From Pectobacterium brasiliense (GTDB lineage Bacteria > Pseudomonadota > Gammaproteobacteria > Enterobacterales > Enterobacteriaceae), in the NCBI RefSeq assembly GCF_016950255.1, contig NZ_JACGFN010000001.1:2170001-2234000 (forward strand): a DNA stretch of 64,000 bases, in the 5' to 3' direction. Each line of letters opens with the position of its first letter. Position 1 is the first letter of the stretch. The position numbers and the translations under genes were made by a program. This document shows, one piece after another, positions 45,199 through 59,020 of this stretch. The notes beneath the pieces were generated by a model. The model was not told the DNA's origin. It ran no database searches and saw nothing but the letters and a program-made list of their open reading frames with translations.

Positions 45199-45561
45199 GG
45201 GGCTGATTCTGGATTCGACGGGATTTGCAAAGCCCAAGGTGCATGCCGAGGGGCGGTTTGCCTCGTAAAAAGCCGCAAAAAAATAGTCGCAAACGACGAA
45301 AACTACGCTTTAGCAGCTTAATAACCTGCTTATAGCCCTCTCTCCCTAGCCTCCGCTCTTAGGACGGGGATCAAGAGAGGTCAAACCCAAAAGAGATCGT
45401 GTGGATGCCTTGCCTGGGGTTGAAGCACTAAATCTAATCAGGCTAGTTTGTTAGTGGCGTGTCTATTCGCAGCTGGCAAGCGAATGTAAAGATAGACTAA
45501 GCATGTAGTACCGACGGTAGAGTGGTTCCGGACGGGGGTTCAAATCCCCCCAGCTCCACCA
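45199..45561 (+). ncRNA. ssrA: Transfer-messenger RNA (tmRNA)
   Basis: 363 nt, very close to E. coli tmRNA: starts GGGGCTGATTCTGGATTCG, ends with the T-arm and CTCCACCA acceptor. The tag reading frame (45289-45318, then TAA TAA) encodes ANDENYALAA, preceded by the resume region AAAAATAGTCGCAAAC. Pseudoknot segments (GGTGCATGCCGAGGGGCGG; GCCTGGGGTTGAAG) are recognisable. The 3' end is the integration site of the satellite that begins immediately downstream, and integration preserves the tRNA-like domain. Confidence 0.97.
45539..45561 (+). other. attL in the 3' end of ssrA
   Basis: The T-arm and acceptor sequence TTCAAATCCCCCCAGC (45539-45554) reappears with 2 mismatches at 56751-56766 (attR1) and 3 at 59465-59480 (attR2). 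This identifies ssrA as attB for the adjacent P4-like elements. Confidence 0.7.
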
Positions 45562-45695: not shown

Positions 45696-45743
45696 GTAGA
45701 ATATATACCAAAAGGCGTATACCAATTGCATGCGTATACCAAT
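45673..45743. promoter_or_regulatory. Four ATTGGTATACG sites in inverted arrangement before int
   Basis: ATTGGTATACG at 45673-45683 and 45685-45695, and its complement CGTATACCAAT at 45716-45726 and 45733-45743. The block ends 16 bp before the integrase ATG. It is suited to binding by the integrase, AlpA or another regulator controlling int. Single copies occur at the right end (56675-56685) and in the second left end (56886-56896). Confidence 0.65.
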
Positions 45744-45759
45744 CACGAAGGATATCCCC

Positions 45760-46956
45760 ATGGCACGGACAACCCGCCCACTCACCCACACTGAAGTACA
45801 AAAAGCCAAAGCGACAGACAAAGATCTGACGTTGCACGATGGCAACGGGTTATTCCTCTTAGTCAAAACCACAGGTAAAAAGCTGTGGCGGTTCCGCTAC
45901 CAGAAACCCATAACCGGCCAGCGAACTATGATCGGATTTGGCGCTTACCCGGCATTGTCATTAGCCGACGCACGCGCCATGAGAGACGAAAAACTGTCTT
46001 TGTTAGCCAAAGGAATAGACCCACAGGAAAAAGTGACTAAGGAAGTCGAAGAAGCGCAAATCGCGGTAGAAAGCATCTTCATCAATGTGGCGCGTAACTG
46101 GTTCACACTAAAACAGACAAAGGTCAGCGCGGATCACGCCAAAGACATTTGGCGATCGCTGGAAAAAGATGTGCTCCCGGCGATTGAGAATATCCCAGTA
46201 CAGGAAATCAAAGCCCGCACGTTGATACAGGCGCTAGAGCCGATTAAAGCCCGAGGAGCATTGGAAACTGTCAGACGCTTAGTACAGCGTATTAACGAAA
46301 TCATGGTTTACGCGGTCAATACGGGGCTGATTGACGCTAACCCCGCCTCTGGCATTGGTATGGCCTTTGAACGCCCTAAAAAGCAACACATGCCGACTAT
46401 TCGGCCAGAAGAGCTACCCAAGCTAATGCGCACCATTGCCATGTCTAACCTGTCCATCCCAACCCGTTGCTTATTAGAATGGCAGCTACTGACGCTAATT
46501 CGCCCGGCAGAAGCCTCCGCAACGGCATGGGCAGAGATCGATATAGAGGAAAGAACGTGGAGCATTCCGGCTGAACGCATGAAAGCCAAGCGTGATCATA
46601 TCGTTCCGCTTTCCGATCAAGCGCTGGAACTACTCGACATCATGCGCCCTATCAGCGGCAACCGGGAACATGTATTCCCCAGCCGCAACGATCCTAAAAA
46701 ACCCATGAACAGCCAGACCGCAAACGCCGCATTAAAACGCATCGGCTACGGTGGCAAACTGGTCGCACATGGTTTACGCTCAATAGCCAGCACCGCCATG
46801 AATGAAGCCGGTTTTAATCCTGATGTGATTGAAGCGGCGTTGGCTCATAGCGATAAAAATGAGGTAAGAAAAGCTTATAATCGTTCAACATACTTTACCC
46901 AACGTATTGAATTAATGTATTGGTGGGGTGTGTTTATTAAAAACAAAGAGGGTTAA
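45760..46956 (+). CDS. int: P4-type tyrosine integrase
   Basis: 398 residues. N-terminal arm-binding DUF4102-like domain (about 1-90: LTLHDGNGLFLLVKTTGKKL, GFGAYPALSLADARAM), core-binding domain (about 100-190), and C-terminal catalytic domain with Arg in LIRPAEA, Lys in MKAKRDH, HGLRS, LAHSDKN and the nucleophile Tyr near the C-terminus (RKAYNRSTY). It integrates and excises the element at ssrA. ATG 45760 has AAGGA 8 nt upstream. It shares a palindromic stop region with the convergent 567-residue gene. Confidence 0.92.
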   Translation: MARTTRPLTHTEVQKAKATDKDLTLHDGNGLFLLVKTTGKKLWRFRYQKPITGQRTMIGFGAYPALSLADARAMRDEKLSLLAKGIDPQEKVTKEVEEAQIAVESIFINVARNWFTLKQTKVSADHAKDIWRSLEKDVLPAIENIPVQEIKARTLIQALEPIKARGALETVRRLVQRINEIMVYAVNTGLIDANPASGIGMAFERPKKQHMPTIRPEELPKLMRTIAMSNLSIPTRCLLEWQLLTLIRPAEASATAWAEIDIEERTWSIPAERMKAKRDHIVPLSDQALELLDIMRPISGNREHVFPSRNDPKKPMNSQTANAALKRIGYGGKLVAHGLRSIASTAMNEAGFNPDVIEAALAHSDKNEVRKAYNRSTYFTQRIELMYWWGVFIKNKEG

Positions 46957-46964
46957 CCCTCTTT
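46945..46964. other. 20-bp perfect palindrome at the convergent stop codons
   Basis: AAAGAGGGTT and its exact complement AACCCTCTTT: both convergent genes end in codons for Glu-Gly-stop read from the same palindrome. It may double as a compact bidirectional terminator. Confidence 0.6.
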
Positions 46965-48656
46965 CTCGCGATATAAACTAAAACACTCTATCAAATCGAT
47001 ATGCTGTGCGTTAGTTAATCGTGCTTTGATATAATCAAAAACTTTTTTAACAGAAGATATCTCCCTTAAAGCTCTATTAGTCATTAATTTATAATTTTCA
47101 TACATTCCAATTCTATAATATTGATTAGCCGCACGCACTAACATAGCGACCTCGGTCATCGCAGGCAGGTTAAAACGGTTTTTTTTAAATTTATTTTTAT
47201 CATAATCATTAAAACAAGAAGTAAACAACTTCAATGTATCAACACCTACAGTAGCATTAAATTCATTACCCAATGAGTTATAAAGATAAGAACAACAAGC
47301 ATACCAATAAATACTATCCTTCAAAAAACAATGCCTTTTCTCTGCAAAATCCCGCCACCCAACCTTATGCTCATTATGAATTAAATTATATAGGTAATAA
47401 AAGTGAAGAAGGCCATCTTTAAATTCTTTCTTTGATTGGTCAAAGATGATTTCAATTTTATCCATAATCTTCTGCAAATCAACAACTTGATTTGAATTTA
47501 ACATATTCAAATATTCACTAAACCATTTCCCCACAGCTTTGTCTGTAAAGGAAACTGGATTCCAAACCCAATATTGAGCAGACATTTCCCCAATAATCGT
47601 ACTAGATGTTTCCATTAGCCAGTTAACTGTTTCTTTTGTTTTACTCGTATTTTTTCGACAAAAGTTTTTTATTACATGACTTAATAAACGAAGCAATCCC
47701 GAATAGCTAAAATAAGGTTCCCCAAACCTAACAAGGCAGTCTGCCATTGGGTTATGCGCTTGAGAGATCATTACATCTAACGGCTTAAGCTCATGGACAA
47801 ATGATGAACGCATCTTGTATAAATTGTCCAATGCTCTATCAAGAAAGCTTCTACGAATTGGGAAGCGTTCGGTTTCATAAAAAAAATCATCCTCGATATT
47901 ATTTACGATAAATGACTTAAACCTTTTTTCGATTTTAAATTGTTTTTCATCAACAAGTACGTTTTTGATTTTATCTGATATTTCAGATGGAATATCTATA
48001 AAAATTTCTTCAAGCTTTCCCTTCGTATTTTGATCATAGTCTTCCCAATGAGATTGATATCTAGCATTTCTTTGAGATAAGGACTCGAGTGCATATACTA
48101 GCATAGAATAAGCTAAGTCAAAGTTCGTTGATAAAGACTCTTTTGTATCGCTAATTATTTTCAGCGCAGCTATCACAGACGTGAATCCAGCACGTTCGAT
48201 ACTTACTACATTTTTCAAAAAATCACAAAATCCATTGGCAGTGTTCTGTGAGACATTCCGATTAATCTCTACTAAATATGGAGCAACTTCTAAAGCAATT
48301 TTAGAGTGGTTTTTATTAAAATTTAATTGCGCACAAATCTTTTTCACCGATTCCTTTTCAAGTCTTGCCACGCAATTAAAATAAAACTCCCAAAGTAATA
48401 TGAATTGCTGGACATAATCTTGATCACCAGCTCTAACAACTACTCCAGCTTCAATTTTCTCAGGTTTTTCGGTCAATAAATTATAATCAACCAAATAACA
48501 ATTCACCCCATCATGGCTAATTTTTTTTAATTTAAAAAAAGGGGAGTTATTTTCTAATGAAAAAAACACATCAACATTTGAATAGAAAACAAAAGTTCCT
48601 TCATGCCTTTCAATTTTATCTGCATCAAAAAAAACACCTGATGATATTTGAAGCAT
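46953..48656 (-). CDS. Putative HEPN-domain protein, candidate anti-phage factor
   Basis: 567 residues, AT-rich compared with the rest of the satellite. I do not recognise a named family. Visible: an N-terminal all-beta-like region (1-80), helical middle, and a segment at about 175-330 that resembles the ApeA-like HEPN domain, with FDLAYSMLVYALESLSQR and then LYKMRSSFVHEL, whose Arg283-x4-His288 matches the HEPN RNase motif, followed by GLLRLLSHVIKNFCRK. The C-terminal 200 residues are helical and without known motif. There is no signal peptide. The gene occupies the interval between integrase and cos/late genes, which in P4-like satellites is a known hotspot for defence genes. Function is inference; the reading frame itself is certain. 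Confidence 0.6.
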   Translation of the reverse strand: MLQISSGVFFDADKIERHEGTFVFYSNVDVFFSLENNSPFFKLKKISHDGVNCYLVDYNLLTEKPEKIEAGVVVRAGDQDYVQQFILLWEFYFNCVARLEKESVKKICAQLNFNKNHSKIALEVAPYLVEINRNVSQNTANGFCDFLKNVVSIERAGFTSVIAALKIISDTKESLSTNFDLAYSMLVYALESLSQRNARYQSHWEDYDQNTKGKLEEIFIDIPSEISDKIKNVLVDEKQFKIEKRFKSFIVNNIEDDFFYETERFPIRRSFLDRALDNLYKMRSSFVHELKPLDVMISQAHNPMADCLVRFGEPYFSYSGLLRLLSHVIKNFCRKNTSKTKETVNWLMETSSTIIGEMSAQYWVWNPVSFTDKAVGKWFSEYLNMLNSNQVVDLQKIMDKIEIIFDQSKKEFKDGLLHFYYLYNLIHNEHKVGWRDFAEKRHCFLKDSIYWYACCSYLYNSLGNEFNATVGVDTLKLFTSCFNDYDKNKFKKNRFNLPAMTEVAMLVRAANQYYRIGMYENYKLMTNRALREISSVKKVFDYIKARLTNAQHIDLIECFSLYREKEG

Positions 48657-48784
48657 GGCTACACCCTACACATCAACAAAATTGATGTTATAAGAATACT
48701 CCATACATAGGCATAGAGAAACAAACATTATATCGCTAATAAAATCCGCTACATGATGCTAATTTAATTCCCCCCCCGCGCGCA
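48657..48784. other. Promoter-side spacer of the HEPN-type gene
   Basis: AT-rich start (promoter region of the leftward gene) changing abruptly to C/G-rich sequence at about 48770, just before the cos-like site. No gene is seen. Confidence 0.4.
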
Positions 48785-48803
48785 ATGCTATCCCCGCCAC
48801 GCC
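48785..48803 (-). other. cos: Candidate cos site (P2/P4 type)
   Basis: ATGCTATCCCCGCCACGCC is the complement of GGCGTGGCGGGGATAGCAT and matches the 19-nt cohesive end of P2/P4, GGCGAGGCGGGGAAAGCAC as I recall it, at 16 of 19 positions. It is flanked by other inverted repeats and lies between the defence-type gene and the late genes, the expected place. This implies packaging by a P2-like helper phage. Confidence 0.65.
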
Positions 48804-48963
48804 TGCCCGCTTTATGTAGCGCATTTCATGCAGTTGCATGGAAGCGCTCAGGCCGCGCCAGTACTGGCGCTGTAGGGCAGATACGGGGGTAAGTATTGCA
48901 TGCAAATCCATGCACCGTATGCATGCACGGTCAAAAAACCGCTAGCCAGAGAAAAAAACTCGC

Positions 48964-48987
48964 AAAAAAGCCCGCGCAATGGCGGGC
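48964..48987 (-). terminator. Terminator of the sid-delta late operon
   Basis: GCCCGC (48970-48975) pairs with GCGGGC (48982-48987), followed on the minus strand by six T. It stands 42 bp after the delta/ogr stop, so psu is not part of this operon. Confidence 0.75.
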
Positions 48988-49029
48988 GACGTTCTGATAT
49001 TAACGACAATGAAATTATAATCTGGCTAA

Positions 49030-49278
49030 TTAATTCCATTGAGTTGCGGTTGGGTAATCCTTATATTTTTTCTGCATAGCCGGTGATAGCGGAATATCCG
49101 GCACCGGCAGATCGCGTCTATTCGATGGCTGAATAATTTCCTCTATCGATTCCAGTGTGCGGAAAGTTGCTGAGCATTCAATATTCCGGCACTGGTGATA
49201 GCGCTGCTTAACGTTCTCTGATAACGGGCGACTGGTGCGGGCATGGGCAGCATGGCCGCAGAACGGACAAGACATCAT
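49030..49278 (-). CDS. Ogr/Delta-family late-gene activator
   Basis: 82 residues with a single Ogr/Delta zinc finger: CPFCGHAAHARTS ... YHQCRNIECSATF (C-x2-C-x22-C-x4-C). P2 Ogr and P4 Delta activate late promoters of helper and satellite. It is a one-finger form like Ogr (P4 Delta is a tandem double). It overlaps the sid stop (ATGATGA) and has GGAG 8 nt upstream of the first ATG. Confidence 0.9.
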   Translation of the reverse strand: MMSCPFCGHAAHARTSRPLSENVKQRYHQCRNIECSATFRTLESIEEIIQPSNRRDLPVPDIPLSPAMQKKYKDYPTATQWN

Positions 49279-50006
49279 TTCGTTTTCTCCCGTTGTTCGC
49301 GTAGCGCCTGACCTTTTTTCATTCTTGTTATTGGGCTGGTCAATAATTTCTGATCCACATTCTTAATGGATTCGCTATAGAGACGGATTTCCTGTAACAG
49401 TGCTTCTTCTTTCATGTCAAAGCGATAACTCTCCATCCGGCTTTCAAGTTGCTGAGTCACCTCCTGTAGCACAACCTGATTGTCGCTTGCTGTAAAATTC
49501 ACATGGTGATAGATCTGTTCATCATGCGATTTCAGGGAAAGTGCATGAAGACGTAAAGCCATACCCCTGATAAGCGGTTCTGCCGTTTCCATCGCTTTTT
49601 CCAGCTCGTAAGACGCGTAACTGCGCATCAGGGAACGGTGAGCATTTTGATAATTCAACCCGCTTTTGGCAGCAACCAGTTCGGCCAGCCCTTTATCCAG
49701 CTCCAGCGCAGCCACCAAACCGTCATACTCTTTCGCCAGCTCTTTGTGTGATACCTGCTGCAAATGGAGCGACTTCAAATCGTCTGACATCTGGCCGCCT
49801 GAATCGCGGAAACGCTGCCGCCAGTCGTTTTCCAGTAACTGGCTTTTTTCCTGCTCCACACGCTGCTGCTTTTGGGCATTCTCAATCGCGTTAATCACGT
49901 TCTGTAACGCGTCGCTGTCTTTCTGGTATTCCTCTTTAGCGCTGTTGTAGTAGTTACGTTGTTTTTCGATACGTTCATTCAGCAATGAGGCTACGGTTTT
50001 GGTCAT
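49275..50006 (-). CDS. sid: Capsid size determination protein Sid
   Basis: About 243 residues, highly helical. The segment DWRQRFRDSGGQMSDDLKSL, then VSHKELAKEYDGLVAALELD and AHRSLMRSYASYELEKAME, aligns with P4 Sid (DWRTAFRAAGGVLSDELKQR in P4). Sid forms an external scaffold forcing P2 capsid protein into a small T=4 shell that excludes the helper genome. ATG 50006 is chosen for GGAG at spacing 8; ATG 50012 is too close to that site. Confidence 0.85.
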   Translation of the reverse strand: MTKTVASLLNERIEKQRNYYNSAKEEYQKDSDALQNVINAIENAQKQQRVEQEKSQLLENDWRQRFRDSGGQMSDDLKSLHLQQVSHKELAKEYDGLVAALELDKGLAELVAAKSGLNYQNAHRSLMRSYASYELEKAMETAEPLIRGMALRLHALSLKSHDEQIYHHVNFTASDNQVVLQEVTQQLESRMESYRFDMKEEALLQEIRLYSESIKNVDQKLLTSPITRMKKGQALREQREKTK

Positions 50007-50042
50007 GGTCATTTCTCCGCTAGGGTTAGTGTCTGGTGGCTA

Positions 50043-51041: not shown

Positions 51042-51791
51042 ATGACTGCGCAATTTATCCGTTTCTCCGGCTTGCCTGCCGGGGCTTTTTGGCGTTATAG
51101 TTTCGTCGCTGCCGCAAAATCGGCAGTCGGGCGTAGGAACCCGAGTTACTCAACGGCGACACCAGACGCGCCATGCGTCTTTTTTTACGTCGCAGCCTTA
51201 GCACACCTGCATAAAATGCGGCATGTTTTACGCCGTCATTGCATCCAGATTATGGTGGCTCAGGCGGGGCAGCCTTCGGGCTGGCCGGTGTTCGTTGAGG
51301 CCGGTATTCCTACCCCCGTCTGGGCTACCACCCATGAGTGTAGGAACTCCGGTGGTAGCAGTTTTAGCTACTCAACGGAGATTGCCACATGGCTACGACC
51401 CCTATCCCGTCACACCCGCAATTTACCTTCTTGTTTCTGGCCGTGCGCCGCGCCGAATTACGCGCCTTACCGCACCGTGAAGCCGTTATCGCCCCGGATG
51501 AAATCAGCGCCCGCCGTCTGCTGGCGCGGGACTATGTACTGTCGTTTGCTGGCCGTCTGCCGCTGCGGAGTACACGCCATGTTTGATGACACGCCCCTGA
51601 CCCCGGAAGAGCTGACCGACCAGTGCCGCGCCCTGACGCACGCCGTGATTGAGCTGGATAACCCGATGGCGAAAGAAGTGCTGTTGTTTGTGCTGGCTGA
51701 ACGGCTGGAAGTGCTGTCGTCCACGCTGGATACGCCCGACCTCATCGACGACCTGAACGATGTTGACTACACCGACACCACACTGCATTAA
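51042..51791 (+). CDS. Ash-family protein, open frame running into the next gene
   Basis: The N-terminal 110 residues resemble the phage Ash family: GRRNPSYSTATPDAPCVFFY and HCIQIMVAQAGQPSGWPVF, then PTPVWATTHE. From about residue 115 to 178 the frame looks non-coding (Cys/Arg/Pro-rich) because the Icd-like gene is read there in another frame, and from codon 180 it coincides with the 70-residue gene at 51579. Either Ash is a long fused protein or translation ends differently; the boundary cannot be fixed from sequence. Confidence 0.4.
   Translation: MTAQFIRFSGLPAGAFWRYSFVAAAKSAVGRRNPSYSTATPDAPCVFFYVAALAHLHKMRHVLRRHCIQIMVAQAGQPSGWPVFVEAGIPTPVWATTHECRNSGGSSFSYSTEIATWLRPLSRHTRNLPSCFWPCAAPNYAPYRTVKPLSPRMKSAPAVCWRGTMYCRLLAVCRCGVHAMFDDTPLTPEELTDQCRALTHAVIELDNPMAKEVLLFVLAERLEVLSSTLDTPDLIDDLNDVDYTDTTLH
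51290..51390 (+). ncRNA. Candidate C4/CI-like antisense immunity RNA
   Basis: GCTACCACC (51324-51332) pairs perfectly with GGTGGTAGC (51351-51359) around the loop CATGAGTGTAGGAACTCC. The loop word GTAGGAAC and the following TACTCAACGG also occur upstream at 51131-51165 (GTAGGAACCC, TTACTCAACGG). Hairpins of this form next to Ash/Icd genes recall the phage C4 antisense RNA that controls anti-immunity genes. Confidence 0.4.
51389..51586 (+). CDS. Icd-like host cell division inhibitor family protein
   Basis: 65 residues: FTFLFLAVRRAELRALPHRE, then ISARRLLARDYVLSFAGRLP. This matches small proteins annotated as Icd-like inhibitors in P1- and P4-type elements; activity is not established. It overlaps the Ash frame and ends 8 bp inside the next gene. 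Confidence 0.65.
   Translation: MATTPIPSHPQFTFLFLAVRRAELRALPHREAVIAPDEISARRLLARDYVLSFAGRLPLRSTRHV
51579..51791 (+). CDS. Small acidic satellite protein
   Basis: 70 residues, acidic (MFDDTPLTPEELTDQCRALT, ending DDLNDVDYTDTTLH). Commonly found before the alpha gene in P4-like elements; function unknown. Overlaps the Icd-like gene by 8 bp and precedes alpha by 10 bp. Confidence 0.65.
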   Translation: MFDDTPLTPEELTDQCRALTHAVIELDNPMAKEVLLFVLAERLEVLSSTLDTPDLIDDLNDVDYTDTTLH

Positions 51792-51801
51792 GGGGCGACG
51801 C

Positions 51802-54129
51802 ATGGCACACCTTACCGTGACACAGACCGTGAAACGCGCCAGCGGCCACTGGCCGCAACTGCTCCCGGCAGTGGGTATCCGCATTGATGCCACCGGGCAG
51901 CATACCGCCTGCCCGATGTGCGAGGGCAAAGACCGTTTCCGCTTCGATAACAAAGAAGGGCGCGGCACATGGTTCTGTAACCAGTGCGGCGCGGGGGACG
52001 GCCTGAATCTGGTTGAGAAAGCGCTGAACCTGACGCCGACAGAAGCCGCCCTGAAAGTCGGCGCATGGCTGGGTGACCTGCCGGACAGCCCGACAGCGTC
52101 CACATCTGACGACGCAGACAGCGAGGCCGCCCGGCAACGGGCGGCAGTTCAGGCACAGGCAAAACTGAAAGAGGCGGTGATGCAATCCGGCAACGCGTAT
52201 CTCAGCGCCAAAGGCTGGCCGGATATCGCCGTACCCACCCTACAGGGCAAGCCGCTGCGCGTGGGCGGTATCACCTATCAGCCCGGCGATGTGCTGGTGC
52301 CGCTGACCACACCGGACGGTGAAGTAGTGAATCTCCAGCTTATCAACGCACAGGGCGACAAGCGCACGTTAAAAGGTGGGCAGGTCAAAGGCACCTTTCA
52401 CTGTTTCAGCGGTAAACAGGCCAGCGTTATCTGGCTGGCTGAGGGCTACGCCACCGGCTTAACGTTGCATCAGTTAACTGGTGATAGCGTGTATGTCGCC
52501 CTCAGTGCCAACAACCTGCCGTCCCTTGCCCGTGAGCTGAAAACCCGCCACCCGGCGGTTACGCTGCTGATAGCGGCTGACCGGGACGAGAACGGCATCG
52601 GCCAGACCAAAGCGGAACAGGCCGCCGCTGCCGTCAATGGCCGTGTCGCACTGCCGCCGGTGTTTGGTGACTGGAATGATGTCTATCTTACAGAAGGTGC
52701 TGACGCCACCCGCCAGCACCTGAATGCGTTTACTCAACCAGAGCCAGTCAGCCCGTTTGCGTCGCTGGGCGAGGCCGAGTTCAAGGCCATGAGCGCCAGC
52801 GAGAAAGCGGAGAAGATACGCGACCACTACCGCGATACGCTGGCGATTGACGCCTTCGGGGAAACCTTCTTCCAGTACCAGAACGGCGCGTGGAAAGTGT
52901 TGCCCTACCGCCTGTTAAGCCGGGATATCGCGGCGCTGTTTCAGAAGATACACGCCCCCTTTACCGCGTCCGGGATTGGCAGTGTGTTAGATACCCTGAA
53001 ATTGATTATCCCGATGCAGGAAAAACCCCTGCGCCGGTTAATCGGCTTTCGTAACGGGGTGTTTGACACTGCCAGCGGTGAATTTAAACCGCATCGCCGG
53101 GAGCACTGGCTGAATACCGTCAATGATGTGGATTACACGCCGTTTAAGGCTGGGGAAAACCTTGCTGATAATGCTCCGCACTTCTGGCGCTGGCTGACCC
53201 GTGCCGCCGGGAGCAATACGGATAAACAGGAGCGTATTCTGGCCGCACTGTTTATGGTGCTGGCGAACTGCTACGACTGGCAACTGTTCCTTGAAGTCAC
53301 CGGCCCCGGCGGTAGCGGAAAAAGTATTCTGGCCGAAATTGCCACCATGCTGGCCGGGGAGGACAACACCACGGCGGCCACCATCAACACCATTGAATCA
53401 TCCCGTGAACGCTCATCGATTATTGGCTTCTCGTTAATCGTCCTGCCTGACCAAGAAAAATGGAGCGGTGACGGTGCAGGCATTAAAGCCATTACCGGCG
53501 GCGATGCGGTGATGGTTGACCCGAAATACCGCGACGCTTACTCAACCCGGATTCCGGCGGTGATTCTGGCCGTGAACAACTCACCGATGCGTTTTAGCGA
53601 CCGCAGCGGGGGCGTGTCCCGTCGCCGGGTGATAATCCACTTCGGCGAAACCATCCCGGCCAGCGAACGCGACCCCAAGCTGAAAGAGAAAATACGCGCA
53701 GAGCTGGCGGTGATTGTCCGTCACCTGATGAAACGTTTTGCCGACCCAAACGATGCCCGGACGCTGTTACAGGCACAGCAACACTCCGCTGAGGCGCTGG
53801 AAATCAAACGGCAGGCTGACCCGCTGGTTGATTTTTGCGGCTACCTGCTGGCACACGGCGATACCACCGGGCTGTATATGGGCAACGCCAACATTACGCC
53901 GCGTAACCCGCGTAAATACCTGTATCACGCCTACCTGTCCTTTATGGAGTCGCACGGCCACCAGAAGCCCATCAGCCTGACGGCCTTTGGTAAGGTACTG
54001 CCTAACATGATGTCGGAATACGGGCAGACGTATCTCAAGGGCAGGACCAATCAGGGCATACAGACTAACCTTGAACTGAAAGACGAATCCGACGCCGACT
54101 GGCTGCCCAAGTGCGAAATAGCGAGGTAG
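51802..54129 (+). CDS. P4-type primase-helicase Alpha
   Basis: 775 residues, similar throughout to P4 alpha (777). N-terminal zinc finger CPMC...CNQC (about 36-70: FDNKEGRGTWFCNQCGAGDG), TOPRIM primase domain with IAEGYAT-type WLAEGYATGLT and LLIAADRDENG, then a D5/SF3 helicase with Walker A TGPGGSGKSILAEIA and LPDQEKWSGDGAG, and a C-terminal origin-binding domain (LYHAYLSFMESHGHQK). It primes, unwinds and recognises the iterons. AAGGGG stands 7-8 nt before ATG 51802. The last 25 codons are duplicated as a remnant at 56918. Confidence 0.95.
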   Translation: MAHLTVTQTVKRASGHWPQLLPAVGIRIDATGQHTACPMCEGKDRFRFDNKEGRGTWFCNQCGAGDGLNLVEKALNLTPTEAALKVGAWLGDLPDSPTASTSDDADSEAARQRAAVQAQAKLKEAVMQSGNAYLSAKGWPDIAVPTLQGKPLRVGGITYQPGDVLVPLTTPDGEVVNLQLINAQGDKRTLKGGQVKGTFHCFSGKQASVIWLAEGYATGLTLHQLTGDSVYVALSANNLPSLARELKTRHPAVTLLIAADRDENGIGQTKAEQAAAAVNGRVALPPVFGDWNDVYLTEGADATRQHLNAFTQPEPVSPFASLGEAEFKAMSASEKAEKIRDHYRDTLAIDAFGETFFQYQNGAWKVLPYRLLSRDIAALFQKIHAPFTASGIGSVLDTLKLIIPMQEKPLRRLIGFRNGVFDTASGEFKPHRREHWLNTVNDVDYTPFKAGENLADNAPHFWRWLTRAAGSNTDKQERILAALFMVLANCYDWQLFLEVTGPGGSGKSILAEIATMLAGEDNTTAATINTIESSRERSSIIGFSLIVLPDQEKWSGDGAGIKAITGGDAVMVDPKYRDAYSTRIPAVILAVNNSPMRFSDRSGGVSRRRVIIHFGETIPASERDPKLKEKIRAELAVIVRHLMKRFADPNDARTLLQAQQHSAEALEIKRQADPLVDFCGYLLAHGDTTGLYMGNANITPRNPRKYLYHAYLSFMESHGHQKPISLTAFGKVLPNMMSEYGQTYLKGRTNQGIQTNLELKDESDADWLPKCEIAR

Positions 54130-54239: not shown

Positions 54240-54815
54240 ATGCCCGCTGAAGTTATACAAAACGGTGGTTTTGTAATTAATTTATTTATGGCTCTGATTG
54301 CAATTGCAGCGTCATTAATCAGTTATTTGGTCTACTCTGAAAACTCTATTCCCGATGTTGTTGTTTATATTGAGCAGGATAAAGATGCAAAGCAAATTTT
54401 AAATCTAGTAATTAAAAATATTGGGAAGGGCGCAGCTAAGAACATAGTGTTCAAATGTGAAACTCCATTGCCACAGCACGCCTTTGACATTACTGATACT
54501 GCTGAAATGACAAAAGGTGCCCTTGTTACAGGGATACCTTATTTAGCTCCCGGAGGGGAAAGGAGCATGATGTTTGGTAAATATCACGAACTGGCTAAAT
54601 GGTTCGAAAATGAAAAAATAACAGTTGATATTACATGTGAAAGAGCGAGGGGAATTCCATTTGGAAATAGAAAGATAAAAAACACAAGTTACCTTGAGGT
54701 TTTTTCTTTCTCAACAGTATCAGCATCTGATAATAGTATTGGGAATAAAATACGCGAGGAATTAATGAAAATAAGAAATGAAATCTCGAAGATAAAATCT
54801 GGGAACGGTAGGTGA
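54240..54815 (+). CDS. Membrane-anchored protein of unknown function
   Basis: 191 residues, AT-rich. One N-terminal membrane segment (about 10-32: FVINLFMALIAIAASLISYL), then a soluble domain with beta-rich segments (PDVVVYIEQDKDAKQILNLV, NIGKGAAKNIVFKCE, PYLAPGGERSMMFGKY) and a Lys-rich coiled tail. AAGGTG precedes ATG. It sits behind the alpha terminator as a separate cargo gene, a frequent place for accessory or defence genes; no function is assigned. Confidence 0.65.
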   Translation: MPAEVIQNGGFVINLFMALIAIAASLISYLVYSENSIPDVVVYIEQDKDAKQILNLVIKNIGKGAAKNIVFKCETPLPQHAFDITDTAEMTKGALVTGIPYLAPGGERSMMFGKYHELAKWFENEKITVDITCERARGIPFGNRKIKNTSYLEVFSFSTVSASDNSIGNKIREELMKIRNEISKIKSGNGR

Positions 54816-54939: not shown

Positions 54940-55191
54940 ATGATCATACAGCATATCCTTGTTAATGTGACTGTCAGTATGAGTGATTTCAAAAAATCAC
55001 CCAATGCTGCACTCAAAGAAGCCAACGGGCAACCCGTTGCTGTGCCCACTAATGGGCGTATCTCTGGGTACTACATTTCTCCAGAGTTGTGGGAAGCGTT
55101 AACTGACTATCAGGAAGATATTGAACTCGCGAAAATTGCCTATTCAAGGATGAAGGGGAAACGTGTGAAGTTTGATCTGGATGAGTTATAA
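54940..55191 (+). CDS. RelB/Phd-like antitoxin, copy 1
   Basis: 83 residues, nearly identical to copy 2 at 57251 (SDFKKSPNAALKEANGQPVA, YQEDIELAKIAYSRMKGKRV). Type II antitoxin of the StbD/Phd-YefM kind. N-terminus differs slightly (MIIQHILVNVTVSM). The partner toxin is broken, so this may be an orphan antitoxin cross-protecting against copy 2. Confidence 0.8.
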   Translation: MIIQHILVNVTVSMSDFKKSPNAALKEANGQPVAVPTNGRISGYYISPELWEALTDYQEDIELAKIAYSRMKGKRVKFDLDEL

Positions 55192-55462
55192 GCTGGAGTT
55201 TGAATAGCTAAGAAAGGCGGCTTAGCGTTGCATTTCGGACTTGAATCCGCCGTTCACCAAAAAACTGAAAGAGGTTTTACAAAAATCCCCGCGTCCAGCC
55301 AACCGGCTTCACGGAATGGTTGACTGTTACAAAATCAAACTTCGTTCCGCCGGCTATCGATTAGTTTATCAAGTGTTTGAGCATGAGATCGTGGTGCTGG
55401 TTTTAGTTGTGGGTAAGCGGGAACGCTCAGAGGTTTATCAAACAGCCAAGGACAGACTATAA
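55181..55462 (+). pseudogene. RelE-family toxin, copy 1, inactivated
   Basis: Begins ATG overlapping the antitoxin stop, reads MSYKLEFE and then a TAG stop. About 48 bp follow (55212-55250) that differ completely from the 51 bp in intact copy 2 before identity resumes at TTCACCAAAAAACTG. The C-terminal 70 residues (NRLHGMVDCYKIKLRSAGYR) are retained. Confidence 0.85.
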
Positions 55463-55512
55463 GCGCGAATATCTTACATTCACAGCTTTTTGTCATATGG
55501 TCTATCTGCCAT

Positions 55513-55632
55513 CAAGGTGATGAGTCACTCGTCACCTGTTCACCAACTCATCACCACTTAATTTATTGATTAATAAAAATAAAAAACCATAGTGAAGAGA
55601 GTGAACAGTTTTGTGCAAAATCTTTTTATTTT
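55513..55632 (+). repeat. 120-bp crr-like iteron repeat, copy R1
   Basis: Starts CAAGGTGATGAG, contains CACCTGTTCACCAACTCATC and AGTGAAGAGAGTGAACAGTT, ends AAAATCTTTTTATT. Iterons match those near the putative origin. Copies R2-R4 stand at 57044, 57827 and 59095 in the same orientation. P4 crr is built of 120-bp direct repeats with such iterons. Confidence 0.75.
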
Positions 55633-55682
55633 GAGATAAGCACACTCATCCCCAATGCGAATACTCAGACTATCTTTTGATA

Positions 55683-55707
55683 TGTACCTTTTATATACTT
55701 CTTGTAC
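55683..55707 (+). promoter_or_regulatory. Candidate operator of the tacAT module
   Basis: Two TGTAC words at 55683-55687 and 55703-55707, exactly 20 bp apart (two helix turns), about 35-60 bp before the antitoxin gene. Autorepression by the RHH antitoxin is typical. Confidence 0.3.
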
Positions 55708-55741
55708 GGCAATCTGCCGGAATTATGAATGTGAGGTAACT

Positions 55742-56008
55742 ATGCCTACAACCGCAAGACTGGAAGCGCGCATCCCTTCGGAACTCCACGCATTGATCAA
55801 ACATGCAGCCGAGTTGCAGGGGCGCACAATGACGGATTTTATTATCACAGCAACGCAGGAAGCCGCTAAAAGAGCCGTAGAGGAAACTGCGATCCTGAAA
55901 CTGGCAATTGAAGACCAAAAGCAATTTGCTGACTCACTGCTATCCGAATCACCGGTTTCCACTGCATTATTAGGCGCAATGCAAAGGCGTAAAACGTTGG
56001 GAAGATAA
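55742..56008 (+). CDS. TacA-like antitoxin (DUF1778, ribbon-helix-helix)
   Basis: 88 residues: N-terminal RHH (TTARLEARIPSELHALIKHA, GRTMTDFIITATQEAA) and a C-terminal toxin-neutralising tail. GAGG stands 5-6 nt before ATG 55742; longer in-frame starts lack support. One base separates it from the GNAT toxin gene. Pairs with it as a type II module. Confidence 0.88.
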   Translation: MPTTARLEARIPSELHALIKHAAELQGRTMTDFIITATQEAAKRAVEETAILKLAIEDQKQFADSLLSESPVSTALLGAMQRRKTLGR

Positions 56009-56009
56009 A

Positions 56010-56525
56010 ATGAGCTTATTGACCTACACGCTACTTGCCAAAAGCCATAACAAGAAAGATTTTAACTGCGGCGTTCCTGAGTTAAATACTTACCTGCAAA
56101 AGTACGCCGGGCAGGACAGCCGGGAACGCTTTACTAAATGTTATGTTGCCGTTGATGAAAACAATAACGTAGCAGGCTTTTATACGTTGTCTTCCAGTGC
56201 AATCGACATCAGCGGCCTTCCCGAGACGATTACCAAGAAACTTCCGCGTTATCCTTCTGTACCCGCTGCATTACTTGGTCGCCTTGCCGTCGATTCTGAA
56301 TTTGCGGGAAAAGGCATAGGCGGTTCATTACTTGTTGATGCGATCCTCAATGTTTCGCGCTCGACAACAGGAATATGGGCTTTACATGTCGATGCGAAAG
56401 ATGAGGTTGCGAAGAATTTTTATCTGAAATATGGGTTTATTGCCTTTCAACGTAAGCCTAATTCACTCTATCTTCCTATCACAAATACCCTGTTAAAAGA
56501 ATTAGCCTCATTTGAACTAGTTTGA
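56010..56525 (+). CDS. TacT-like GNAT toxin
   Basis: 171 residues with GNAT fold: LLGRLAVDSEFAGKGIGGSL gives the acetyl-CoA binding loop, FYLKYGFIAFQ carries the catalytic-type Tyr. TacT/AtaT toxins acetylate the amino group of charged tRNAs and stop translation. Downstream partner of the RHH antitoxin. Last gene of the first satellite before its right end. Confidence 0.88.
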   Translation: MSLLTYTLLAKSHNKKDFNCGVPELNTYLQKYAGQDSRERFTKCYVAVDENNNVAGFYTLSSSAIDISGLPETITKKLPRYPSVPAALLGRLAVDSEFAGKGIGGSLLVDAILNVSRSTTGIWALHVDAKDEVAKNFYLKYGFIAFQRKPNSLYLPITNTLLKELASFELV

Positions 56526-56674
56526 TAAGAATCCATCAGGATTAAGTACACACCAACACCACCAAAAAGTGATATTCGCGTGTACTTATCAAAGCATCAT
56601 CATAGATTGAGATAACAGAAGGGTGGGATTCACAGGGTGAAATCATTAGCAAAAAAACCTATCACTTTTCTGCA

Positions 56675-56767
56675 TTGGTATACGCTTAGGTATACCGACA
56701 AAGTCTGGAATCACACTTAAAACATTAATATCATTATGTTACGTGAATTATTCAGATTCCCCCAGCC
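56675..56767 (+). repeat. Right-end repeat of satellite A with attR1
   Basis: ATTGGTATACG (56675-56685) is followed by GTCTGGAATCACACTTAAAA (from 56703) and, at 56751-56767, the att-like TTCAGATTCCCCCAGCC. The stretch from 56703 matches 59417-59482 closely. TTCAGATTCCCCCAGC differs from the ssrA end TTCAAATCCCCCCAGC at two positions. Confidence 0.75.
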
Positions 56768-56809
56768 AATTTAGATTCCGGTTATTACCAGATAAGGCCG
56801 GAAACGTGA

Positions 56810-56846
56810 AAAAGCCGCTAACCGCAAGGTTCAGCGGCTTTTTTAT
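56810..56846 (+). terminator. Terminator at the left end of the second element
   Basis: AAAAGCCGCT (56810-56819) pairs with AGCGGCTTTT (56833-56842), then more T. Occupies the same place relative to the left-end repeat as 45595-45629 in satellite A. Confidence 0.8.
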
Positions 56847-56908
56847 GTCTGTAAGTCCGACGACATTCGCCTGAATCCGGTGACTATTGGTATACGTTTA
56901 GGTATACG
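56846..56908 (+). repeat. Left-end repeat, copy B (remnant element)
   Basis: Matches 45631-45695 (GTCCGACGACATTCGCCTGA, ATTGGTATACG, GGTATACG). No integrase follows: the sequence jumps directly to the end of an alpha gene. Confidence 0.75.
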
Positions 56909-56917
56909 CAAACTGAG

Positions 56918-57029
56918 CATACAGACCAATCTTGAGCTGAAAGACGAATCAGACGCTGACTAACTGCCCAAATGTGAGTCAGCGAGGTAGTTACCAGAAA
57001 CGGCAAAACCGGCCCCGGCCGGTTTTTTT
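56918..57029 (+). pseudogene. Remnant of an alpha primase gene (last 25 codons) and its terminator
   Basis: CATACAGACCAATCTTGAGC onward matches 54057 onward of the intact alpha gene to its TAG stop and through the CCGGCC terminator (57006-57029). A TGG codon has become TAA. Everything from integrase to alpha codon 750 is missing, a single internal deletion of a second satellite. Confidence 0.85.
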
Positions 57030-57043
57030 ACGTCCAAACACTT

Positions 57044-57163
57044 CAAAGGGTGACGAGTTACTCATCACCTGTTCACCAACTCATCACCCGTTAATACTTT
57101 GATTAATAAAAATAAAAAACCATAGTGAAGAGAGTGAGCAGTTTTGTGCAAAATCTTTTTATT
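57044..57163 (+). repeat. 120-bp crr-like iteron repeat, copy R2
   Basis: Same layout as R1 (CTGTTCACCAACTCATCACC, GAAGAGAGTGAGCAGTTTTG, ATCTTTTTATT). Follows the alpha remnant directly and precedes relBE copy 2. Confidence 0.75.
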
Positions 57164-57250
57164 TGGTGTCACGTTTATACCGTGATGTTGCTGCTTTTTT
57201 GATTAAGTGCTAAATTCAGTATCAAATATCACACTTAAAAGGGATTAACC

Positions 57251-57502
57251 ATGTCCGTACAACCTATCCTTGCGAATGCTGCCGTAAGTATCAGCGACTT
57301 TAAAAAATCGCCCAATGCCGCGCTTAAAGAAGCTAACGGCGAGCCTGTAGCGGTGCTCACTAATGGCCGTATCTCTGGCTATTATGTTTCCCCCGAAACA
57401 TGGGAGGCGCTGGCCGACTATCAGGAAGATATCGAACTTGCCAAAATCGCCCGTTCCCGGATGAAGGGGAAACGTGTGAAGGTCGATCTGGATGAGTTAT
57501 AA
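57251..57502 (+). CDS. RelB/Phd-like antitoxin, copy 2
   Basis: 83 residues (MSVQPILANAAVSISDFKKS, NGRISGYYVSPETWEALADY). AAGGGATT precedes ATG. Overlaps the toxin gene by 11 bp. Differs from copy 1 at a few residues, mainly at the N-terminus. Confidence 0.88.
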   Translation: MSVQPILANAAVSISDFKKSPNAALKEANGEPVAVLTNGRISGYYVSPETWEALADYQEDIELAKIARSRMKGKRVKVDLDEL

Positions 57503-57776
57503 GCTGGAGTTTGAAGAGCACGCGCTGAAAGAATTTAAGAAGCTGGGTGCGCCCGTGCGGGAGCAATTCACCAAAAAACTGAAAGCGGTTTTACAAAATC
57601 CCCATGTTCCCGCCAACCGACTTCATGGAATGGCCGACTGCTACAAAATCAAACTTCGTTCCGCTGGCTATCGGCTAGTGTATCAAGTGCTCGAACATGA
57701 GATCGTGGTACTGGTTTTAGCTGTGGGCAAACGGGAACGCTCAGAGGTTTATAAAGCAGCAATAGACCGACTATAA
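57492..57776 (+). CDS. RelE/ParE-family toxin, copy 2 (intact)
   Basis: 94 residues: YKLEFEEHALKEFKKLGAPV, FTKKLKAVLQNPHVPANRLH, CYKIKLRSAGYRLVYQV, VLAVGKRERSEVYKAA. This is the RelE fold with the conserved basic and Tyr residues of ribosome-dependent mRNA interferases. Its start lies inside the antitoxin gene, giving coupled translation. Confidence 0.9.
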   Translation: MSYKLEFEEHALKEFKKLGAPVREQFTKKLKAVLQNPHVPANRLHGMADCYKIKLRSAGYRLVYQVLEHEIVVLVLAVGKRERSEVYKAAIDRL

Positions 57777-57826
57777 GCTCGGTATTTTAAGTGTTCGACT
57801 ATCTTGTTGTGCGACATACCTACCAT

Positions 57827-57944
57827 CAAGGTGATGAGCCACTCGTCACCTGCTCACCAACTCATCACCCTTTAATTCATTGATTATTAAAAATAAAAAT
57901 CATTGGTGAAGAGAGTGAACAGTTTTGTGCAAAATCTTTTTATT
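57827..57944 (+). repeat. 120-bp crr-like iteron repeat, copy R3
   Basis: CAAGGTGATGAGCCACTCGT, CTGCTCACCAACTCATCACC, GAAGAGAGTGAACAGTTTTG, ATCTTTTTATT. Lies between relBE copy 2 and the Fic module. Confidence 0.75.
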
Positions 57945-57951
57945 GGGGATG

Positions 57952-58536
57952 TCAGAGAATACTTTTCTCAAAAATATCGGCTAATGGTCGAATATTGCCG
58001 TGGTATCCGGCCACGTTAGCCGCTAACCATTCCTGAACGTCGAGCTTTTCGAAAGAGACACCATAGCCACAATTAATAATCATATGCTCGAACAATAAAC
58101 GCTGAGAACGTCCATTGCCTTCCCGAAACGGGTGAATCACATTCAAATCTGAATAATATTCGGCTAACTGAGTTATTAGTGCTGGACGTTCAAGGCCTTG
58201 TAAAAAATCATCATTGGATAGCTGCATAAAAATTTTATTGGCTTCAATTTCAATACGGGATACGGTGCAAAAACGTGTTTGACCTTTAGAAATATCGATA
58301 CGCCGTATTTCTCCTGCCCAATCGAATAAATCCCCAAATATTTTCCCGTGCAGCCCACACCAATAATGCAGATCGTAAGTCGGTTCTTCAAATTCAATAT
58401 CGAGAACGGCCAGTTCAGATAACTGACGTTCCGCATCGTCGAATTGACTGTCATCGTTGATACCGAGTTTATTTATCAGAACATCGCTATCAGGGTAGAT
58501 GTAAGGATCTTGCCCTGAGCTGTATTTATCGGACAT
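57952..58536 (-). CDS. fic: Fic-domain AMP-transferase toxin
   Basis: 194 residues. The active-site motif HPFREGNGRSQR begins at His135 and is canonical (HPFx[D/E]GN[G/K]R), so the enzyme should be active; the N-terminus MSDKYSSGQDPYIYPDSDVL resembles E. coli Fic. Fic toxins AMPylate targets such as gyrase/topo IV. ATG 58536 overlaps the end of the upstream antitoxin gene by 11 bp; a longer start at 58560 is less likely. Confidence 0.9.
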   Translation of the reverse strand: MSDKYSSGQDPYIYPDSDVLINKLGINDDSQFDDAERQLSELAVLDIEFEEPTYDLHYWCGLHGKIFGDLFDWAGEIRRIDISKGQTRFCTVSRIEIEANKIFMQLSNDDFLQGLERPALITQLAEYYSDLNVIHPFREGNGRSQRLLFEHMIINCGYGVSFEKLDVQEWLAANVAGYHGNIRPLADIFEKSIL

Positions 58537-59020
58537 AACCACCCGCTTTATACATGGCAATCAGATTTTTTCTCAGCGCTTCCCTTTCCTGCTTGTCTGC
58601 GGGAAGCGGCGTATCCTCAACGCTGAATCCTTCAAGACGTATACTGTCCCGATAGTTTTTGAGTTTCACCTGATTGTAGTAATCACGCTTTTCTTCCAGC
58701 GTCACCAAACGTGGGGATCGCGTTTTGTCTGGCAACGCTTTTGTCGTGATTTTCCGGTGTTGTTTAAATATCGACAGATCGGTATTTTTCAATTTCTCGA
58801 TCAGCCGTTCCCCGTCGCCAAACACGCCCCATGACGAGATAGACAAGGCTTGCCGTTTGCCATTTTTCTCGCGTGATATGCTGATATCCATCGTTGACTG
58901 GAGCGTGTTTAACACGTCCTGTACTTTTCTTTCAGAGATACCTGTAGCGGTGACGATAGAGTGCGTATTAGGAGAATCCTCTTGTACCAGAGCCGCGAGT
59001 ACCGCCATTTCATAGCGCAT
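58526..59020 (-). CDS. YhfG-like Fic antitoxin fused to a winged-helix domain
   Basis: 164 residues. The N-terminal part (about 1-85: RYEMAVLAALVQEDSPNTHS, SERKVQDVLNTLQ) looks like a DUF977-type winged helix. The C-terminal part (about 105-164: TLEEKRDYYNQVKLKNYRDS, IRLEGF) resembles YhfG, the 55-residue antitoxin of E. coli Fic. A fusion would join DNA binding and toxin neutralisation. Directly upstream of fic, overlapping by 11 bp. Confidence 0.75.
   Translation of the reverse strand: MRYEMAVLAALVQEDSPNTHSIVTATGISERKVQDVLNTLQSTMDISISREKNGKRQALSISSWGVFGDGERLIEKLKNTDLSIFKQHRKITTKALPDKTRSPRLVTLEEKRDYYNQVKLKNYRDSIRLEGFSVEDTPLPADKQEREALRKNLIAMYKAGGYVR

Follow-up and report, generated by a model that had tools for sequence, protein, structure and literature searches.

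A 567-residue HEPN-type protein, probably a one-gene anti-phage system, in the cargo slot of a P4-like satellite of Pectobacterium brasiliense

The slot between psu and int of P4-like satellites is a reservoir of anti-phage systems (Rousset 2022, PMC9122126). That study cloned 18 systems in addition to the canonical P4 set, of which seven gave protection, and it mentioned uncharacterised HEPN-domain systems in the psu-int hotspot. HEPN domains carry an RX4-6H motif at the end of helix 3, in which the residue after the Arg is mostly N, D or H (PMC3710099). Tha, from a Staphylococcus prophage, requires the motif His for protection and is triggered by phage tail proteins (PMC11087260), and PD-T7-4 is an anti-phage gene for which, as for its homologues, overlap with an integrase gene is frequent (Vassallo 2022, PMC9519451). 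Here, we describe a 567-residue open reading frame (ORF) with an ATG start, found by ORF analysis at positions 46953-48656 (minus strand) of a 64,000-nucleotide stretch of Pectobacterium brasiliense DNA (GCF_016950255.1, contig NZ_JACGFN010000001.1, positions 2,170,001 to 2,234,000), hereafter the window. The gene lies in the same slot as the systems of Rousset 2022.

This gene very probably encodes a HEPN-type RNase, the RNase activity being predicted from conserved residues and the modelled fold, on which we base the effector class. We consider it likely that the protein is a self-contained abortive-infection protein, with a central HEPN RNase effector and a probable C-terminal sensor, and we infer an anti-phage effect; architecture, place and neighbours of the gene are the reasons for the sensing and defence parts of this reading. 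The features of the gene are as follows.

46953..48656, minus strand: 567-residue HEPN-type RNase gene, probable single-gene anti-phage system (ORF, homologues, model, conservation)
48261..48656, minus strand: residues 1-132, N-terminal part; beta strands at 15-63, start conserved as MLQIxxGxFF...SN (secondary structure and conservation)
47637..48260, minus strand: residues 133-340, HEPN domain in which an insert separates main helices two and three (models; boundaries set by us)
48084..48086, minus strand: Glu191, invariant acidic residue in helix 179-197 (alignment and model)
47793..47810, minus strand: predicted catalytic motif R283-S-S-F-V-H288 at the end of helix 269-289 (alignment and model)
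46956..47636, minus strand: residues 341-567, helical (TPR-like) C-terminal part, proposed sensor (models; least conserved part)
46945..46964, minus strand: terminator-like perfect inverted repeat across the convergent ends of the gene and the integrase (consensus match only)

The protein search yielded 99 proteins, the window's own included, among the 8,000 best candidates scored. Alignment A1 comprised 67 of these 99, again with the window's own, the 32 left out being mostly fragments and near-duplicates; a second homologue search using the alignment added one protein (P0100), which carried no Pfam label. R283-S-S-F-V-H288 is the sole RxxxxH in the protein and, because 0.52 such motifs are expected from composition, its presence alone means little. 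However, R283, S284, H288 and E191 were invariant in all 67 aligned homologues, at identities down to 20%, as were R155, Y183, L193, W204, F249, Y280, L290, G320 and E342, and R283, H288 and E191 were retained in 40 of the 40 loci examined. Such invariance of the motif across the alignment is hard to explain by chance. The HEPN part was the best conserved across the 67 homologues, with 24 of 208 columns conserved at 90% or more (11 of 132 in the N-terminal part and 7 of 227 in the C-terminal part). Against the homologue of Escherichia coli ATCC 8739, identity was 83% in the N-terminal part, 67% in the HEPN part and 63% in the C-terminal part. Nonsynonymous divergence between these two genes (dN) was about 0.21 and synonymous divergence (dS) about 1.9, near saturation, indicating that the gene is under purifying selection.

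When residues 130-345 were modelled alone (pLDDT, the predicted local distance difference test score, 86), RSSFVH lay at a helix end and Glu191 in an earlier helix. Structural re-alignment of this model to solved structures gave 14 HEPN-type entries among the best 15, including AbiV, HepT-type toxins, AF_0298 and sacsin. The predicted models place the RX4-6H motif at the end of helix 3 (the helix numbering is ours) within a four-helix up-down bundle; a conserved acidic residue in helix 2 (E191) and a polar residue after the motif Arg (the invariant S284) are also present. The Ex3[KR] pattern, typical of many but not all HEPN families, is absent, the protein having E191xxxQ195 instead. Foldseek alone found nothing significant with the domain model, and sequence-profile comparisons with HEPN families likewise gave nothing significant. 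An earlier reading from sequence only had proposed an AT-rich gene of 567 residues with Arg283-x4-His288 at this position, and ORF, base composition and motif agree with it. It had also suggested that the product is a HEPN protein, staking this on a four-helix bundle in the predicted structure and on Arg283 and His288 in the homologues; the modelled bundle and its helix order, the structural re-alignment and the retention of both residues in every aligned homologue and every locus examined bear this out.

The same reading had looked to Apea-like HEPN domains for a profile match. PF18739 (HEPN_Apea) is indeed the nearest Pfam HEPN family, but nothing significant was obtained: the window protein had no match at the cut-off of 24.4 bits. 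Sub-threshold matches were given by three of the 67 members at E <= 0.01 (best 0.003), and the distant member P0090 reached 14.4 bits, with residues 183-293 on profile positions 3-103. An hhalign profile comparison with 11 HEPN_Apea pieces gave no support and is weak evidence either way because the pieces are diverse and poorly aligned. The window protein resembles ApeA in having the HEPN R-x4-H after a conserved acidic helix. In contrast, the mostly beta N-terminal domain of ApeA has about 300 residues (PMC3710099) and the N-terminal part of the window protein about 130, and the latter adds a helical C-terminal part of about 220 residues. Since the cut-off was missed and the domain plan differs, membership of ApeA was ruled out; by predicted structure and motif, this is a HEPN protein near the Apea group in pattern. 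Tha is likewise a mobile-element HEPN RNase protein of abortive-infection-like action, but it has 301 residues, with HEPN at 184-296 and no recognised N-terminal domain (PMC11087260; the two were set side by side by description only). HepT/MntA, the SO_3166 HEPN toxins and AbiV differ in that their solved chains have 128-155 residues and carry no solenoid part.

Searches of Pfam, PADLOC 2.0.0, NCBIfam (June 2026) and PHROGs gave no specific match to the protein; a Pfam DUF3810 hit of 17.9 bits against a cut-off of 28 was taken as chance. Nothing credible was found in PDB sequence searches with the protein, A1 and alignment A4 (36 of the 41 available pieces). A phage-collection protein search gave one weak partial match, and a plasmid protein search seven distant matches, one covering more than 80% of the length. 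The idea of a new HEPN family therefore holds as far as these four libraries go, in which the domain build is unmatched to any named family. In contrast, the suggestion that the C-terminal region resembles nothing recognisable had to be abandoned, because this part structurally resembles solenoids of the TPR/Rap/PlcR type. We recognised no paper on this protein in the literature searched, and the accession of the ATCC 8739 copy was absent from the main texts searched, a search covering main texts and not supplementary tables.

On sequence grounds, the gene occupies the cargo slot of a P4-like satellite integrated in the chromosome, between a P4-type cos site and an integrase adjoining ssrA. 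The window contains the following part of this satellite, together with an AlpA-like regulator.

45199..45561, plus strand: ssrA (transfer-messenger RNA, tmRNA), putative integration target (RNA annotation)
45730..46956, plus strand: tyrosine integrase of the satellite (ORF and profile matches)
48785..48803, minus strand: cos-like packaging site adjoining the gene, 19-mer (pattern match)
49030..49278, minus strand: ogr/delta-type zinc finger activator, 82 residues (profile match)
49275..50012, minus strand: gene in the sid position, Psu-like according to PHROG (PHROG match and gene order of relatives)
51248..51335, plus strand: C4 antisense RNA (RNA annotation)
51760..54129, plus strand: P4 alpha-type primase-helicase (profile match)

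The integrase (45730-46956) is convergent with the gene and overlaps its end by 4 bases. The gene is AT-rich, as the G+C content of 0.32 at 47001-48000 shows (0.38 at 48001-49000; 0.47-0.61 in the other kilobases at 40-54 kb). The cos-like 19-mer has three mismatches to what we take to be the P2/P4 cos pattern, no match of this kind was found in 100 shuffles, and the pattern is exact at the same place in the E. coli ATCC 8739 relative. The far attachment site was not located: as far as 18 kb beyond the end of the window, the same strand carried no exact repeat of the ssrA end of at least 12 bases. The P4-like hotspot proposed from sequence is borne out by the cos site, the integrase, the tmRNA, the delta and alpha primase genes and the C4 RNA, in agreement with Rousset 2022 (PMC9122126). 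In detail, the gene does lie between the cos end of the late genes and int, but psu does not flank the cargo: none is present between delta and cos in the window satellite, where no ORF of at least 70 residues lies between delta and the gene. psu is present in ATCC 8739 and in the locus L034. The delta gene of the window satellite encodes 82 residues, and the E. coli relatives carry a 501-base gene there. A palindrome just upstream of the gene was rejected as an element of note, not being conserved in six relatives.

Homologues are, in the genomes searched, sporadic in occurrence. The same slot, between psu and int at ssrA, holds a homologue in E. coli ATCC 8739 (69% identity) and in isolate Tig228 (68%). 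A match was found in 19 of 5,426 complete E. coli genomes, 18 of them covering at least 80% of the protein; one E. coli copy is split by IS1 and one is cut short beside an IS5-type element. Counting the window's own genome each time, 2 of the 295 genomes searched from its family had a homologue; for its phylum the figure was 3 of 398, the third being a weak 60-residue match. Their range extends to Pseudomonadota, Bacillota, Myxococcota, Planctomycetota, Spirochaetota and archaeal bins.

For the neighbour count, flanking ORFs of at least 110 residues were taken, at most three per side, and the near-duplicate loci L016, L022 and L039 were dropped; the tree omitted these and L030. No neighbour family occurred in more than 4 of the 33 loci, and the gene therefore looks like a one-gene system, as had been supposed. 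Recurring neighbours were a group of possible resolvases (L017, L024, L035 and L037), one family shared by L008 and L029, two pairs common to L035 and L037, and the integrases of L034 and L036. Fifteen loci were scanned individually for defence genes (20 proteins, E up to 1e-15), and the other 18 were covered by a pooled tally of 131 proteins. In 7 of the 15 scanned loci the gene adjoined genes with a known or candidate role in defence, and 8 gave no match, the selection having been made by size and place with no background control. The seven are listed here.

L020: Gabija A and B
L028: type I methyltransferase before the gene, and specificity gene one ORF further after it
L006: EcoRII-type endonuclease and methyltransferase
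L010: PglX/type IIG-like protein
L013: PD-T4-6-type kinase
L015: PDC-S73 and a weaker TIR/argonaute-linked match
L036: AbiU beside an integrase-flanked copy

In the mechanism that we propose, the central HEPN domain (approximately residues 133-340) would be the effector. Two copies would pair, and R283 and H288 would form a metal-independent RNase site with Glu191 and Ser284 nearby. Sensing would probably fall to the C-terminal alpha-solenoid (341-567), and the small N-terminal domain would serve for control or docking. When a competing phage infects the cell, a putative trigger would lift the inhibition, cellular RNA would be cut and growth would stop before phage release; the satellite would gain because the host lineage, and the satellite with it, would be protected. 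In a bolder version, which we regard as a long shot, the solenoid senses a ligand in the manner of Rap/PlcR/AimR proteins, the ligand being a peptide or protein made by the phage, and turns on the HEPN RNase to which it is joined, receptor and effector thus being one protein; in addition, two old branches were independently acquired by P4 satellites and by P2-like phages, parasite and helper within one bacterial family.

The libraries used do not have this build, but the protein may be the HEPN RNase proposed here and yet have been described and tested earlier, as PD-T7-4 or as a HEPN system from DefensePredictor; we think this doubtful though conceivable, and it would bear on novelty and not contradict the mechanism. 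The gene ends inside an integrase in the window, ATCC 8739, L034 and L036, PD-T7-4 is reported from Asgard archaea, the Bacillus cereus group and Citrobacter koseri while the present family occurs in a Sifarchaeota bin, Bacillaceae and enterobacteria, and HEPN domains occur in 4 of 31 validated DefensePredictor systems and also in DS-11. However, PADLOC-DB 2.0.0, which has at least PD-T4-4, PD-T4-6 and PD-T4-9 models and for which a PD-T7-4 model was not confirmed, gave no match at E up to 1, and neither did NCBIfam of June 2026, the ATCC 8739 copy being annotated as a hypothetical protein. The protein could also be the toxin of an addiction or toxin-antitoxin module that keeps the satellite stable, in which case defence would be incidental or lacking. 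Such a role would fit the structural neighbourhood of HEPN toxins such as HepT/SO_3166 and the several toxin-antitoxin-like loci right of the primase; this seems improbable to us, since no partner gene is common to more than 4 of the 33 loci and the protein has two further parts around its HEPN domain. It is highly improbable that the protein regulates the satellite or its helper through a HEPN-like but non-nucleolytic domain. The gene adjoins cos and the integrase, and the TPR-like solenoids that the C-terminal fold resembles include Rap/PlcR/AimR-type regulators, but the motif residues are invariant and the family occurs far from P4 elements, in archaeal bins, in Bacillota and within a type I restriction locus.

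If the abortive-infection reading is confirmed, a broad family (Pseudomonadota, Bacillota, Myxococcota, archaeal bins) would join the one-protein immune RNases. Effector and candidate sensor would stand in one chain with no common cofactor gene, and trigger and target would therefore be directly searchable. With its enterobacterial copies divided between P4 satellites and a P2-like prophage on distant branches (the P2 copy being a long branch), the family would lend itself to work on the helper-satellite arms race. The tree put P4 copies and P2 copy in different, well supported branches, the latter (L045) forming a long branch of unsure placement.

This distant copy (L045:1456-3129) lies between gpS and gpV of a P2-like prophage, a slot of which the literature consulted makes no mention. 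A type I restriction locus surrounds the gene at L028:6467-12002, with the methyltransferase and specificity genes on either side; PrrC-like RNases likewise sit inside type I restriction loci. At both L035 and L037, the gene adjoins umuC and a SRAP gene. In a Desulfobacterales bin (L008:9843-14489) and in Eubacterium (L029:10335-14879), the gene is followed by proteins of about 1,500 residues that are homologous to each other; neither had a PADLOC match, the L008 protein had no Pfam match, and they represent a possible unknown defence gene. Right of the primase in the window, a 191-residue protein (54240-54815) has an N-terminal hydrophobic stretch, noted by eye, and weak PHROG matches of unknown function. 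It is followed at 54940-59020 by a toxin-antitoxin-like gene cluster, comprising a Phd/YefM-like gene at 54940, which scored below the cut-off, and another at 57251 that looks like it by eye, TacA and GNAT at 55655-56525, a ParE-type toxin at 57492, and Fic at 57952-58560 adjoining a gene with a YhfG-like part.
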